Shown in pieces: positions 43,706 to 53,175 of a stretch of DNA of 64,000 nt. This DNA comes from Campylobacter canadensis (lineage in GTDB: Bacteria; Campylobacterota; Campylobacteria; Campylobacterales; Campylobacteraceae), in NCBI RefSeq assembly GCF_013177655.1, contig NZ_CP035946.1, positions 1,116,001 through 1,180,000 of the forward strand. Direction: 5' to 3'. The notes beneath the pieces are model-generated. The model was not told the DNA's origin, did not search any database, and saw nothing but the letters and a program-made list of their open reading frames with translations. How positions within the stretch are numbered: position 1 is the first letter of the stretch; every line of letters starts with the position of its first letter. Made by a program: the position numbers and the translations under genes.

Positions 43706-44388
43706 GATATTACATTATTGCATTATTTATTAATTTGTTAATTCTTAGCATACCAGTAAATGCAAATTATAAAGAAAAACAAAATAATAAAATTCAAATT
43801 AGTCTTTATGAGAATAAAAATAAAGAAGAGATGAAAGAAGAGTTTAAAGAAGAGAGTAGCGAAGAAATTAAAGAAGAAATTAAAGAAGAAATTAAAGAAG
43901 AAATTAAAGAAGAAATTGAAAAAGAGAGTGAAGTAGAAAGTAAAGAAGAAATAATAAAGAAAAAAATTGAGAAAAAAATTGAGAAAAAAATTAAAAACAA
44001 TAATAAAGTAATAAATAAAAATTCACAAAATAAAAATAGCAAAAAAACAACTAATGCTAAGCAAGAAAACAATACTAAAAATAATATAAATAATGAAAAT
44101 AATACACAAAGTATAAATGAAAATATTTGTGCAAGCGCAATTAAATTTTATAACATAAAAAACAATTATCCCAAAAAAGCAATTAAATTGTCTCTTTATG
44201 GAAGATATGCAGTAAAAATAATTTTTAGTATAGACAAAAATAAAAATATAAGAATAATAAAAGCAACAGGCAAAGAGCCTTTTTTAAGTGAAGCAAAAAA
44301 GGCAATACTAAAAATAGATTATGAGATTTATAATTTTAATTTCACACTTTGTGAATATGAAAAAACAATAATTTACGAATTAAAATAA
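43702..44388 (+). CDS. tonB: TonB energy-transducing protein (second system)
   Basis: 228 residues. An N-terminal anchor (about 2-21) is followed by a long Glu/Lys/Ile/Asn linker with five tandem KEEI units coded by near-identical 12-base repeats (43867-43916), then an Asn/Lys-rich stretch. A diverged TonB C-terminal domain shows NNYPKKAIKLSLYGRYAVKIIFSI and ATGKEPFLSEAKKAILK. Co-location with its own exbBD and receptor genes suggests a dedicated energiser for haem uptake. Confidence 0.85.
   Translation: MRYYIIALFINLLILSIPVNANYKEKQNNKIQISLYENKNKEEMKEEFKEESSEEIKEEIKEEIKEEIKEEIEKESEVESKEEIIKKKIEKKIEKKIKNNNKVINKNSQNKNSKKTTNAKQENNTKNNINNENNTQSINENICASAIKFYNIKNNYPKKAIKLSLYGRYAVKIIFSIDKNKNIRIIKATGKEPFLSEAKKAILKIDYEIYNFNFTLCEYEKTIIYELK
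43858..43920 (+). repeat. 12-bp tandem repeats in second tonB
   Basis: GAAATTAAAGAA recurs in tandem about five times and codes for EEIK units. As in the first tonB, gain or loss of units keeps the frame. Confidence 0.75.
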
Positions 44389-46063: not shown

Positions 46064-46774
46064 ATGAAAGATGAAGTTTTTAGTGAAAAAATCATAAAAC
46101 AATTTGAATTTGATGAAAAGGTAGTCCGTGTTTTTGATGATATGGTTACAAGAAGTGTGCCTTTTTATAAACAAAATGAAAAAATTTTGTGTGATATTTT
46201 ATTTAAAAACGCAAAAGAAAATGCAAAAATTCTTGATATAGGCTGCTCAACTGCAAATACACTAATAGCGCTAGCAAATAAAAAAGATTATGAGCTTTTT
46301 GGGCTTGATAGCAGCAAATGTATGATAGATAAAGCTTCAACAAAGGCTAAAGATTTAAATATTAATATAACTTTCATACACGATGAAATTGAGAATTTAG
46401 ACAAAATAAATACAAGTTTTGATGTGATAATTTGCGCTTACACCTTGCATTTTATAAGACCCTTAAAAAGACAAGAAATTTTAGAAAAAATATATAAAAA
46501 ACTTAATAATAATTCTATTTTTATTTTATGCGAAAAAGTACTTTTTGAAAATAACACCTTTCAAAAAAATATAATTGATATTTATGAAGATTACAAAGAA
46601 AGTATGGGTTATTCACGCTATGAAATAGCACAAAAAAGAGCAGCCTTAGAAAATGTTTTAATCCCTTTTACATACAATGAAAATGTAAAAATACTATCCA
46701 ATGCTGGTTTTAAACACATTGATAGTTTTTTTCGTTGGGCTAATTTTGCATCTTTTATTGCTTTTAAAGAATAA
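46064..46774 (+). CDS. cmoA: Carboxy-SAM synthase CmoA
   Basis: A 236-residue class I methyltransferase fold enzyme that makes carboxy-S-adenosylmethionine from SAM and prephenate for cmo5U34 wobble modification of tRNA with CmoB. Characteristic features: FDEKVVRVFDDMVTRSVPFYK at the N-terminus, ILDIGCSTANTLIALA, SKCMIDKA and a C-terminal KRAALENVLIPFTYNENVKILSNAGF. cmoB is not in this window. AAAGG precedes its ATG. Confidence 0.9.
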   Translation: MKDEVFSEKIIKQFEFDEKVVRVFDDMVTRSVPFYKQNEKILCDILFKNAKENAKILDIGCSTANTLIALANKKDYELFGLDSSKCMIDKASTKAKDLNINITFIHDEIENLDKINTSFDVIICAYTLHFIRPLKRQEILEKIYKKLNNNSIFILCEKVLFENNTFQKNIIDIYEDYKESMGYSRYEIAQKRAALENVLIPFTYNENVKILSNAGFKHIDSFFRWANFASFIAFKE

Positions 46775-46818: not shown

Positions 46819-46848
46819 TTGACATTAATTAATTTTTATGCTTAAAAT
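46819..46848 (+). promoter_or_regulatory. sigma-70 promoter of metNIQ transcript
   Basis: TTGACA (46819-46824), an 18-base spacer and TAAAAT (46843-46848). This is the clearest -35/-10 pair in the window. The predicted start near 46855 gives a leader of about 200 bases before metN. Confidence 0.65.
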
Positions 46849-46864
46849 AAGCAAAAAAATTAAT
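46828..46864. repeat. 37-bp inverted repeat over the metN promoter
   Basis: Two 17-base arms (46828-46844 and 46848-46864) match as inverted repeats at 16 of 17 positions around a central AAA, with core TGCTTA-AAA-TAAGCA. It covers the -10 box. It could be an operator, or an RNA hairpin ending the cmoA transcript. Confidence 0.65.
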
Positions 46865-46879
46865 TTTAAGGATAAAAAG

Positions 46880-46900
46880 ATGATGATGCAAATGCGTTAG
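46880..46900 (+). CDS. Met-rich leader peptide (MMMQMR)
   Basis: A six-codon frame ATG ATG ATG CAA ATG CGT TAG, with AAGGA seven bases upstream, in the metNIQ leader. Four of six codons are Met. Placement just downstream of a strong promoter, just upstream of nested hairpins and before a methionine transporter operon points to a regulatory leader peptide sensing Met-tRNA or translation rate. It is a prediction, since such short frames can occur by chance. Confidence 0.65.
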   Translation: MMMQMR

Positions 46901-46937
46901 CATCTGATTAAAAAACTTTTCTTTTTTAGTCAGATGC
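46900..46937 (+). promoter_or_regulatory. Leader hairpin (B:C) in metN transcript
   Basis: GCATCTGATTAAAAAA (46900-46915) pairs with TTTTTTAGTCAGATGC (46922-46937), 15 Watson-Crick pairs and one G-U, loop CTTTTC. The left arm begins on the last base of the leader stop codon. The left arm can also pair with GATGC inside the leader ORF, and the right arm with GACTAAAGAAG (46961-46971), so alternative folds exist. Confidence 0.7.
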
Positions 46938-46958
46938 AAAAAATACATACTAAAGCAA

Positions 46959-46996
46959 GCGACTAAAGAAGAAAAGTAAAATCTTTGTAGCTTTTT
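46959..46996 (+). terminator. Candidate attenuator terminator before metN
   Basis: GCGACTAAAGA (46959-46969) can pair, with a one-base bulge and one mismatch, with TCTTTGTAGC (46982-46991), followed by TTTTTAT. Its left arm is also the partner of the upstream segment CTTTTTTAGTC (46921-46931), so terminator and antiterminator folds would exclude each other. Confidence 0.5.
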
Positions 46997-47054
46997 ATAA
47001 CTTCAAAAACTTCAAATGAATTTTATTTTTCTTTCAAATAAAAAAGGAAAGAAA

Positions 47055-48017
47055 ATGATAAAAATTAACAATTTAAAAAAGTTTTACGGTAAAACTTGTG
47101 TTATAAACGATGTTTCATTGCAAATTAACAAAGGCGATATTTATGCAATCGTAGGACACAGTGGAGCTGGCAAAAGCACTTTACTTCGTTGTATTAACGG
47201 GCTTGAAAGTTACCAAGAAGGTAGCTTAAAAGTCTTTAATCAAGAAGTAAAAGATTTAAAAGAAAGAGATTTAAGAAAATTAAGAACAAAGGTTGGAATG
47301 ATTTTTCAACATTTTGCACTAGAAAGTAGAAAAACAGCTTATGAAAATATCGCAATGCCTTTGCTTTTGCAAAATAAAAGTAAGGATTTTATAAAGCAAA
47401 GAGTTTTTACACTTTTAGATTTAGTTGGCTTAGAAAATAAAGCCTATTCCTATCCAAAAGAGCTTAGCGGTGGGCAAAAACAAAGAGTTGCTATAGCAAG
47501 AGCCTTAGCCTTAAATCCTGAAATTATTTTAAGCGATGAAGCAACAAGTGCGCTTGACCCATCAACAACAAATCAAATTCTTGATTTATTAAAGCAAATT
47601 AACAAAGAATTAAACATAAGTGTGGTTTTAGTAACTCACGAAATGGAGGCAGTAAAAAGAATAGCAAATAAAGCTTGTTTGCTAAATGGCGGCAATATCA
47701 TTGCTAATTCTTGTGTAAATGATATCTTCTTAAAACCTAGCAAAAAAATGAAAGAATTTTTAAGCGAAGATGAGCATTTGCCTAAAGGTGGAGTAAATAT
47801 TAAGCTTATTTTTCCCGATGATGTAGCAAATAAAAGCATTATTTCTCAAATGGCAAGAGAGTTAAATATTGATTTTTCAATAGTTTGGGGAAAAATTGAA
47901 TTAATAAACGAAAAAGCAGTTGGTACATTAATTATAAACACGCAAAAAGCTAACCAAGATTTAATTACAAATTTTGTTAGCAAATGCGCTATTAATTGGG
48001 AGTTATGTGATGAGTGA
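47055..48017 (+). CDS. metN: Methionine ABC transporter ATPase
   Basis: 320 residues with an ABC domain (Walker [10 protein letters not shown], signature LSGGQKQR, Walker [13 protein letters not shown], switch VTHE) and a C-terminal NIL domain (about 240-320) that binds methionine and inhibits transport when methionine is plentiful. A longer frame starts at 47016, but ATG 47055 follows AAAAAAGGAAAGAAA and gives the standard [12 protein letters not shown] start. First structural gene of the metNIQQ operon, matching Cj0774c. Confidence 0.93.
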
Positions 48018-48765
48018 TATTTTAAATATTTTTAATACTTTCTTAACGCATTATAATAATATTTTAAAAAATGCTTTATTTGAGACAATTTATATGAGCG
48101 TATTTTCAACCTTAGGTGGTTTTATACTTGGAAGCTTAATTGGAATTTTACTTTTTGTTAGCAAAAAAGGCTCTTTGTTTGAAAATAAAATTCTTTATAG
48201 AATTTTAGATGTTTTTGTAAATATTTTTAGGTCTTTTCCATTTTTGGTTTTGATAATTGCACTCATTCCATTTACTAAATTTTTAATTGGAAAAAGCATA
48301 GGTACAAATGCAATTATAGTTCCACTTACAATAGGAATAGCTCCCTTTATTGCAAAATTAATTCAAGAAGCTTTTAATAATGTTGATTATTCAATAATTG
48401 AAGCAGCAAAAAGTTATGGAGCAAATAGATTTCAAATAATATTTAAAATTATACTAAATGAAAGCTTGCCAGCAATATGCAGTGCTTTAACTCTAACTTT
48501 AATTATAGTTATAGGTTATAGTGCAATGGCAGGAATAGTTGGAGCAGGAGGACTTGGAGATGTAGCTATTAGATTTGGTTATCAAAGATTTAAAACAGAT
48601 GTTATGATTGAAACTGTGATTGTATTAATAATCTTGGTTCAATTTGTACAATTAGTAGGCGATGTGGTTTTAAAATCACTCAATAAAGGTAAAAATAAAG
48701 CATTTTATATTTATATTTTAGCTCTTATTTTACTTACAATTTTTAGTTATTTTAAATTAAATTAA
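48010..48765 (+). CDS. metI: Methionine ABC transporter permease
   Basis: About 251 residues, five to six helices, with the ABC permease EAA loop ([28 protein letters not shown]) and [31 protein letters not shown] typical of MetI. ATG 48010 overlaps the metN stop by eight bases and is preferred over an in-frame start at 47974, which would add 12 residues coded within metN. Confidence 0.93.
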
Positions 48766-48775
48766 AGGAAAAAAA

Positions 48776-49537
48776 ATGAAAAAATTATTATTATCAGTAA
48801 CACTTTGTGCAAGTATTTTTGCATTAGATATTAAAGTTGGTGCTACACCTGTTCCACACGCTGAAATCTTAGAAGTAGCAAAAAAAATTCTAAGTAAAGA
48901 TGGGCATAATTTACAAATAGTTGAATTTAATGATTATGTTTTACCTAATCTTGCAGTTGATGATGATGAGCTTGATGCAAACTTTTTTCAACACAAGCCA
49001 TATTTAGATGAATTTAACAAGCAAAAAGGTACAAAACTAAGTCCTATTGTTGCTGTACATTTAGAACCAATGGGAGTTTATTCAAAAAGTATAAAAAATC
49101 TTAGTGATTTAAAAGAAAATGCTTTAGTTTATATTCCCAACGACCCAACAAATGAATCAAGGGCTTTGGATATTTTAGCGGCTAATGGCTTGATAAGTCT
49201 TGATGAAAGTGTAGAATTAAAAACTCCACTTGATATTGTTAAAAACCCTAAGAATTTAAAGTTTAAAGAACTTGAAGCTGCGCAATTGCCAAGAGTTTTA
49301 GATGAATGCGATTTAGCAGTTATTAATTCTAATTTTGCACTAGCTGCTAATTTAAATCCTAGCAAGGATGCAGTTGTTTTAGAAGATAAAAACAGCCCAT
49401 ATTCAAATATAGTGGTGGTAAAAACTTCAAATGTAAATAATGAAAAATCACAACTTTTAATAAAGGCATTAAAAAGTGATGAAGTAAAAAAATTCATTGA
49501 AGAAAAATACCAAGGTGCAATTATTCCTAGTTTTTAA
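48776..49537 (+). CDS. metQ: Methionine-binding protein MetQ (first copy)
   Basis: A 253-residue NlpA/MetQ-family binding protein. A signal peptide ends near SIFALD. The family motifs follow: KVGATPVPHAEILEVAK, VEFNDYVLPNLAVDDDELDANFFQHKPYL, IPNDPTNESRAL and LDECDLAVINSNFALAA. No lipobox Cys at the cleavage site, so it is a soluble periplasmic protein unlike E. coli MetQ. It may bind L- or D-methionine or derivatives. It is followed nine bases later by a paralogue. Confidence 0.92.
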   Translation: MKKLLLSVTLCASIFALDIKVGATPVPHAEILEVAKKILSKDGHNLQIVEFNDYVLPNLAVDDDELDANFFQHKPYLDEFNKQKGTKLSPIVAVHLEPMGVYSKSIKNLSDLKENALVYIPNDPTNESRALDILAANGLISLDESVELKTPLDIVKNPKNLKFKELEAAQLPRVLDECDLAVINSNFALAANLNPSKDAVVLEDKNSPYSNIVVVKTSNVNNEKSQLLIKALKSDEVKKFIEEKYQGAIIPSF

Positions 49538-49546
49538 GGAGATAAG

Positions 49547-50308
49547 ATGAAAAAGATTTTACTAGCATTTAGCCTGCTTTTTTCCCTTAATGCTAAGGAG
49601 CTTAGGGTTGGAATCACTCCATACCCTAACGCCTTTATTTTAGAAAATATAAAAGACGATTTAAAAGAGATTGGCTATGAGTTAAAGATTATTGAATTTA
49701 ACGATTATATTTTGCCTAATCTTGCCTTAGAAGATGGTGAGCTTGATTTAAATATGTTTCAACACGAACCATTTATGAATGAATTTAACGAAAGCAAAAA
49801 AACTCATATAGTAAAGGTTAGCGAGGTTTTTTTACCACCAATGGCAATTTATTCTAAGAAAGTAAAAAATATAGCTAATGTAAAAAACAATGCCTTAATC
49901 TATGTACCAAACGACCCAACAAATGAATCAAGGGCTTTAGAGCTTTTAGAGGCAGCTAATTTAATTAAGCTTGATGAAAATGCTAAATTTAAAACCGTGC
50001 TTGATATTAGCCACAATCCTAAAAATCTAATTATAAAAGAACTTGAAGCAGCACAAGTTCCAAGAGTTTTAGATGAATGCGATTTAGCAGTTATTAATAC
50101 AAATTATGCTCTTGCAGCAAAGCTAAATCCAATAAGTGATTCTATTTTTATTGAAAGTTTAAATAGTCCTTATGTAAATATTGTTGCTGCTAAAAAAGGT
50201 AACGAAAACTCAAAGCAAGCACAAGATTTCATAAAGGCTTTAAAAACACCTAAAATGAAGGAACTAATTTTAAAAGAATTCAAAGGCGCAATCATACCAG
50301 CTTGGTAA
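49547..50308 (+). CDS. metQ: Methionine-binding protein MetQ (second copy)
   Basis: A 253-residue paralogue of the gene before it, same length and aligned throughout (RVGITPYPNAFILE, EFNDYILPNLALEDGELDLNMFQHEPF, YVPNDPTNESRALELLEA, LDECDLAVINTNYALAAK). Differences near the pocket (TPYPNAF against TPVPHAE) may shift ligand preference. C. jejuni carries a similar run of MetQ paralogues (Cj0770c-Cj0772c). The gene ends the operon with a strong terminator. Confidence 0.92.
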   Translation: MKKILLAFSLLFSLNAKELRVGITPYPNAFILENIKDDLKEIGYELKIIEFNDYILPNLALEDGELDLNMFQHEPFMNEFNESKKTHIVKVSEVFLPPMAIYSKKVKNIANVKNNALIYVPNDPTNESRALELLEAANLIKLDENAKFKTVLDISHNPKNLIIKELEAAQVPRVLDECDLAVINTNYALAAKLNPISDSIFIESLNSPYVNIVAAKKGNENSKQAQDFIKALKTPKMKELILKEFKGAIIPAW

Positions 50309-50605: not shown

Positions 50606-50801
50606 TTCCCAACCTTCCCAACCTTCCCAACCTTCCCAACCTTCCCAACCTTCCCAACCTTCCCAACCTTCCCAACCTTCCCAACCTTCCCAACCTTCCC
50701 AACCTTCCCAACCTTCCCAACCTTCCCAACCTTCCCAACCTTCCCAACCTTCCCAACCTTCCCAACCTTCCCAACCTTCCCAACCTTCCCAACCTTCCCA
50801 A
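50606..50801. repeat. 9-bp tandem array A, TTCCCAACC x 21
   Basis: Twenty-one perfect copies of TTCCCAACC plus a partial unit, in a genome otherwise poor in C. On the minus strand this is (GGTTGGGAA)n, with dense G runs. It is open in all frames (GRL repeated on the minus strand), but no gene start, ribosome site or flanking coding sequence supports translation. Confidence 0.95.
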
Positions 50802-52811: not shown

Positions 52812-52819
52812 ACTTTCTT

Positions 52820-53175
52820 CCATCCATTCCATCCATTCCATCCATTCCATCCATTCCATCCATTCCATCCATTCCATCCATTCCATCCATTCCATCCATT
52901 CCATCCATTCCATCCATTCCATCCATTCCATCCATTCCATCCATTCCATCCATTCCATCCATTCCATCCATTCCATCCATTCCATCCATTCCATCCATTC
53001 CATCCATTCCATCCATTCCATCCATTCCATTCCATCCATTCCATCCATTCCATCCATTCCATCCATTCCATCCATTCCATCCATTCCATCCATTCCATCC
53101 ATTCCATCCATTCCATCCATTCCATCCATTCCAATCATTCCAATCATTCCAATCATTCCAATCATTCCAATCATT
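52820..53175. repeat. 9-bp tandem array C, CCATCCATT x 34 plus CCAATCATT x 5
   Basis: Twenty-three perfect CCATCCATT units (52820-53026), a 5-base fragment CCATT, eleven more units (53032-53130), then five CCAATCATT variant units (53131-53175). Minus-strand frames read MEW, MDG and WNG repeats, but no start or flanking coding sequence supports a gene. Confidence 0.95.

Follow-up and report, generated by a model that had tools for sequence, protein, structure and literature searches.

The window, the whole 64,000-nucleotide stretch of Campylobacter DNA analysed here, carries upstream of its methionine transporter genes an RNA leader that is probably a leader-peptide-controlled translational attenuator responding to a shortage of charged Met-tRNA. 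Such a switch would probably let the methionine-import genes be translated only when methionine is short. Judged from the sequences, the element is real, conserved and functional-looking, and its Met codons, its translational output and its extendable relay would be its distinguishing traits. Its features are collected in Table 1; the coordinates and sequence given in the original prediction match the DNA base for base.

Table 1 The metN leader and the genes that follow it (window positions)
Feature	Position	Strand	Remarks
Promoter-like TTGACA-18-TAAAAT	46819..46848	+	TTGACA 46819-46824, spacer 18, TAAAAT 46843-46848; 11/12 consensus bases; TTGACA recurs here before metN in three other genomes of the genus
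Leader Shine-Dalgarno (SD) AAGGA	46868..46872	+	kept in nearly all copies
Leader ORF MMMQMR, ATGATGATGCAAATGCGTTAG	46880..46900	+	C. jejuni counterpart MMYQMR with Ribo-seq support
Segment A	46882..46895		within the leader ORF
Segment B	46900..46915	+	starts inside the stop codon; partner A or C; a ribosome at the stop codon would cover it
Segment C, CTTTTCTTTTTTAGTCAGATGC	46916..46937	+	46922-46937 pairs with B, 46916-46931 with D
Octamer AAGCAAGC	46953..46960	+	invariant in all copies; unpaired in predicted states
Segment D	46961..46982	+	46961-46976 pairs with C, 46971-46982 with F
Segment E and T-run	46982..46996	+	E 46982-46991, then TTTTT; unsupported as terminator
Segment F, ATTTTATTTTTCTTTC	47020..47035	+	partner D or metN SD region
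metN SD AAGGA and start codon	47044..47057	+	SD 47044-47048, start 47055-47057; proposed switch output
metN, ATP-binding subunit with NIL domain	47055..48017	+	controlled gene; Pfam ABC_tran and NIL; NCBIfam best match ABC_MetN, below cut-off
metI, permease	48010..48765	+	NCBIfam MetI above cut-off
metQ, binding protein 1	48776..49537	+	Pfam Lipoprotein_9 (NlpA) 3e-94
metQ, binding protein 2	49547..50308	+	Pfam Lipoprotein_9 (NlpA) 1e-87

The upstream neighbour of the leader is a cmoA-like gene that ends at 46774. The promoter-like pair proposed in between is present exactly as described, and its TTGACA is found again at this position before metN in three other members of the window's genus; promoter-like matches in the region are nevertheless no more numerous than in shuffled sequence (2 found, 2.3 expected). 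Transcription would be expected to start near 46855. Elsewhere in the window, we observed two tandem arrays of 9-base units, perfect or nearly so, that lie near each other downstream of both metQ genes (50606-50801 and 52818-53169), with the repeats TTCCCAACC (22 copies) and TTCCATCCA (40 copies), both of them open in several minus-strand frames. A 12-base repeat in 12 copies at 43817-43965 encodes KEEIKEEIKEE, a Glu/Lys-rich part of a TonB-like protein.

The predicted Met-rich, translatable leader ORF with its own SD in front of a methionine transporter is indeed there and is conserved in relatives. Four of its six codons are Met codons, and the arrangement agrees with that of leader-peptide attenuators in general, a short ORF with an SD and several codons of the amino acid that the following genes serve. 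M-M-x-Q-M is kept, while codon 6 and the type of stop codon (TAG or TAA) vary, as does codon 3 (ATG, ACA, TCT, CCT, TAT, CAT or ACT). Nearly all copies have AAGGA 4-9 nt upstream of the ATG of this ORF, with AAAGG in G110 and G111. In two copies the ORF is exactly one codon shorter, yet in all 19 distinct leaders, these two included, B starts 2-3 nt downstream of the stop codon's first base. The conservation of CAGATG is not purely coding, since it also belongs to the A:B hairpin. In C. jejuni the ORF has already been published: CJsORF19, encoding MMYQMR upstream of Cj0772c, is translated according to Ribo-seq and was called a possible new leader peptide (PMC11955535), with no mechanism given there. 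The peptides of genomes G096 and G100 are identical to it, and the window's element is likewise an MMxQM(R) ORF before a MetQ or MetN gene.

The original prediction pointed to conservation of MMMQMR-type ORFs as a check, and both ORF and hairpins are kept in 25 copies from 22 genomes of two Campylobacteraceae genera, the window's own and that of C. jejuni; every copy sits before a metN or metQ-type gene. In the window's genus, the leader precedes metN in 4 of 4 genomes, and three of them (G001, G002 and G003) have an extra copy before a solitary metQ, with the peptides MIQMR in G001 and MMQMR in G002. These solitary second metQ genes with their own leaders lie at loci L120, L119 and L036 of G001, G002 and G003, and in G001 and G002 a methyltransferase-like gene follows. 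Neither the metN nor the solitary-metQ copies of this genus are described in PMC11955535. Of 49 genomes of the C. jejuni genus, 18 carry the motif in the metI-metQ spacer, and several others of that genus are without it. One genome, G118, has a degenerate version with the peptide MKVSMR plus the octamer. The metI-metQ spacer of G091 (L205) has neither ORF nor octamer and holds a remnant resembling GAGTGATTTTAAGATT of related leaders, an apparent loss of the element.

For the wider search we built a covariance model from 15 copies; many of its matches are training sequences or near duplicates, and the five least similar copies, all outside the model (G098, G110, G111 and the metQ copies of G001 and G002), were recovered at E values of 2e-13 to 9e-7. 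Across 153 genomes of the family and 399 of the order Campylobacterales, no third genus was found under strict filters that may hide weak relatives. Matches at E 0.02-0.06 in G083, G092, G125, G088, G089 and G112 were set aside, the inspected ones being coding starts or interiors and hence chance. A scan of plus-strand loci in other genera gave no Met-rich ORF upstream of metN.

We compared the alternative pairings of the leader, all of which, A:B, B:C and C:D, exist where they had been predicted and are mutually exclusive. The leader folds better than 200 of 200 dinucleotide shuffles (z = -4.4), and the single-hairpin energies in the window are -6.0 kcal/mol for A:B, -19.9 for B:C and -19.7 for C:D. 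In every leader B:C and C:D were better than with shuffled partners (p 0.002-0.046 per leader). Over eight distinct types, the seven core pairs of B:C have 100% of cells paired against at most 44% in slid controls, and double changes at 3 of 7 pairs; C:D shows double changes at 4 of 7 pairs, and none of 500 shuffles reached its observed score. Both alignments are small and were hand-cut around the predicted helices, and the paired percentage is therefore biased upward, the double changes being less affected. An alignment-free comparison agreed: cognate duplexes were stronger than non-cognate ones for C:D (p=0.003 in the window's genus, 5e-5 in the C. jejuni genus), for B:C (p=0.02 and 1e-4, respectively) and for D:F (p=0.01), with no signal for A:B or F:SD. 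The p values of the cognate and shuffled-partner tests ignore relatedness among leaders, and the window's genus supplies only seven copies, mutually related. Since C covaries with both B and D, B:C and C:D are alternatives and not one fixed fold, which gives the mutually exclusive, conserved RNA pairings of an attenuator. B had been predicted to pair with either the leader ORF or C; the pairing with C is strong and covarying, whereas the one with the ORF (A:B, GATGC:GCATC) is present but rarely better than with shuffled partners, most leaders being at chance level. The ORF, the pairings, their conservation and the covariation of B:C and C:D are shown by the sequences themselves.

The two genera differ in how D reaches the start site. 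In the C. jejuni genus, D (TGACTA) immediately precedes the metQ SD, and the pyrimidines that border C on its 5' side complement the SD region and vary together with the D/SD segment (UUCCU:AGGAA, CUUUCU:AGAAAG, UUUCA:UGAAA and GUUUUC:GAAAAC); C:D therefore closes the metQ SD. In the window's genus, D and the SD are about 70-90 nt apart, or 50-65 nt in two short metQ copies, and the proposed link between them is F, just upstream of the metN SD. The pyrimidine tract of F is conserved in 4 of 4 metN leaders and its complementarity to D is kept in the metQ copies, for example as GAAAAGUAAAAU:AUUUUAUUUUUC in the window, AAAGAAAAUAAG:CUUAUUUUCUUU in the G003 metQ leader and AAAGAAAAUG:CAUUUUCUUU in that of G001. 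D:F reaches -15.2 kcal/mol in the window and is mostly above chance against shuffled partners (p 0.004-0.07). F is also able to pair with AAGGAAAA-type SDs (F:SD, -6.5 kcal/mol in the window), although just two of the seven copies had a better F:SD than shuffled F gave. By its sequence, D resembles an SD serving as bait for F, and likewise resembles B as bait for C.

To compare SD access, we folded each leader with its ribosome-covered part held single-stranded, placing the ribosome either at Met codon 2 or at the stop codon. In all 19 distinct leaders, a ribosome at Met codon 2 left the SD more open than one at the stop codon did, with a mean shift of +0.37 compared with -0.002 in shuffled leaders, and none of 16 settings of footprint edge and 3' length clearly reversed this direction. 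For the window, the shift was clear without coding sequence (0.92 versus 0.45) and only 0.02-0.14 with 12-60 nt of metN included; the switch there therefore needs co-transcriptional folding order, is weak, or has another output. A buried versus a free SD, the mark of a translational attenuator, is thus found directly through C:D in the C. jejuni genus, and in the window clearly only without coding sequence.

In the mechanism that we propose, a ribosome supplied with enough methionine would reach the stop codon of MMMQMR and cover B. C would then pair with D, and F, left free, would pair with the SD and start region of metN and keep translation low. When Met-tRNA is short, the ribosome would instead wait at Met codons 2-3, covering A and not B; the exposed B would pair with C, and the released D would pair with F, leaving the metN SD open for high translation. 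Charged Met-tRNA would thus be the signal, the ribosome footprint would select the fold, and D:F versus F:SD would be the output step; we infer that the controlled step is translation, not RNA decay or transcription. The device of the C. jejuni genus would be shorter, C:D closing the metQ SD directly, and the sign would be the same in both genera because the window's genus adds two links (F and the SD).

The original prediction had read the leader as amino-acid attenuation with D:E as an intrinsic terminator, so that stalling at Met codons would favour termination. Its Met leader and exclusive hairpins stand, but this end point does not. D:E can form in the window with TTTTT next to it, yet it has a 12-base loop and only -4.5 to -5.2 kcal/mol, against the far stronger D:F. 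A terminator scan of the region gave no terminator-like site, and E and its T-run are not conserved in relatives; the conserved intrinsic terminator before the structural gene that marks a transcription attenuator was not found. Moreover, D directly adjoins the SD in the copies of the C. jejuni genus, which leaves no space for a terminator, and the inverted sign would be wrong for an importer. Transcription attenuation through D:E with inverted logic is thus very unlikely. The sign puzzle arose because E was taken as the output. Once translation initiation is taken as the read-out, the sign is normal, since in both genera a ribosome stalled at Met codons would lead to B:C, release D and open the SD; the prediction had itself allowed that the folds might differ or that control might act at initiation or translation, and it is one of these ways out that we adopt.

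The octamer AAGCAAGC stands apart from the pairing scheme. Its distance to C and D varies among copies, and it is kept even in the degenerate G118 leader (L211), where B, C and D have decayed. By eye, no conserved pairing partner for it was seen within the leaders, with partial complements in some copies, such as GCTTACTT in G003, and it has no Rfam match. It is also frequent genome-wide, with counts that differ strongly between species, from 103 in the window's genome to 463 in G113 (among G000, G002, G096, G112 and G113); a reversed-octamer control for these counts is unfair in that it contains CG. In 30 loci it is about twice as common as its own rotations, a biased comparison in that the loci were picked for holding it. 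This abundance possibly reflects codon usage (Lys-Gln-Ala) or a genome motif, and in the leaders the octamer may serve as a pause signal or as a site for a protein, an RNA or a ligand. A two-input methionine switch, combining the Met-codon leader, a relay of genus-dependent length (B-C-D/SD or B-C-D-F-SD) with the same sign, and a second sensor or partner recognising the unpaired AAGCAAGC, is a speculative and rather unlikely extension.

The invariance of the octamer despite its varying spacing, together with its survival in G118, would also suit a different device, in which an unclassified riboswitch for SAM, methionine or another ligand, or a protein or sRNA switch, recognises AAGCAAGC and the ORF is secondary or a second input. 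The B:C and C:D switching is equally suited to a ligand. Rfam covariance models for SAM, SAH and Met riboswitches or other families, however, gave no hit at E<=5 in the window and none at gathering in nine relatives, and a lone motif of eight bases would be small for a ligand pocket. Further points against such a device are that the frame of the ORF, its length in whole codons, its tandem Met codons and its stop-to-B spacing are all kept, and that the C. jejuni ORF is translated (PMC11955535). We therefore regard it as unlikely.

Two further alternatives retain the hairpins and change the input or the output. Leader translation may steer folding while the signal is not methionine but a general initiation or translation stress, or antibiotic stalling at the start of the short ORF. 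In so short an ORF, any ribosome arrested at the start would act alike, and Met codons double as start codons. Against this, the tandem M-M at codons 1-2 is present in all copies except the G001 metQ copy, in which it is lost (MIQMR), the third Met codon is present in 4 of 4 metN leaders of the window's genus, and the element is found exclusively beside Met-import genes, which makes a signal other than methionine distinctly improbable. Alternatively, the switch in the window's genus may act on mRNA stability or through Rho-dependent termination in the untranslated leader, in keeping with the statistical weakness of F:SD and the small shift of the window's SD once coding sequence is included. 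As D and F remain complementary in both the metN and the metQ copies, the position of the SD beside F is kept, and the copies of the C. jejuni genus act at the SD, we give this output only the slimmest of chances. The translational attenuator responding to charged Met-tRNA hence remains our preferred reading.

The usual methionine regulators are absent from C. jejuni and its relatives: C. jejuni is reported to be without MetJ, MetR, SahR and SamR and without the SAM/SAH riboswitches that were searched for (PMC11774046), which makes a Met sensor of another kind plausible. For the import system of these bacteria, the leader is a candidate for the direct methionine sensor that has been missing. 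Amino-acid leader-peptide control of translation is rare compared with transcription attenuation, and the two genera illustrate that a switch of this kind can acquire two pairing steps and move 80 bases away from its target with its sign unchanged. In the literature outside subscription papers, we found no published account of an RNA switch before metN or metQ in Campylobacter.

Among known systems, CJsORF19 is the same peptide as in G096 and G100, at the same site before metQ and after metI, and a leader peptide was suggested for it; RNA structures, mechanism and wider distribution are not given in that paper (PMC11955535). The ORF is not the C. jejuni MetL, a different element of 20 codons that precedes metBA (PMC3847290). 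With the classical transcription attenuators (trp and leu of E. coli; LeuL, TrpL and MetL of C. jejuni, PMC3847290) the leader shares its alternative hairpins and the abundance of codons for the regulated amino acid in its ORF, but here there is no conserved terminator and the output is the SD. The LEU element upstream of actinobacterial leuA also has a leader ORF with regulatory codons and an RNA that engages the SD of the next gene; there, however, the Leu codons themselves pair with the SD, codon changes are not attenuation-like, and sequence and taxa are different (PMC1262725). The rtpA (anti-TRAP) leader of Bacillus subtilis is under leader-peptide translational control by uncharged tRNA-Trp (Chen and Yanofsky 2004, as cited in PMC4027176). 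Amino-acid codons in a short leader ORF likewise gate the start site of the next gene, with starvation giving more translation, whereas the amino acid is Trp and not Met, the host belongs to the Firmicutes, a T-box lies in front and the sequence is unrelated. To our knowledge, a multi-step relay of the D:F type is not known for rtpA. Translational attenuators of the erm type are induced by a macrolide, which acts on the nascent chain. There, as proposed here, stalling in the leader ORF frees a downstream SD through re-pairing of RNA segments, but the likely signal in the metN leader is charged Met-tRNA instead of a macrolide.
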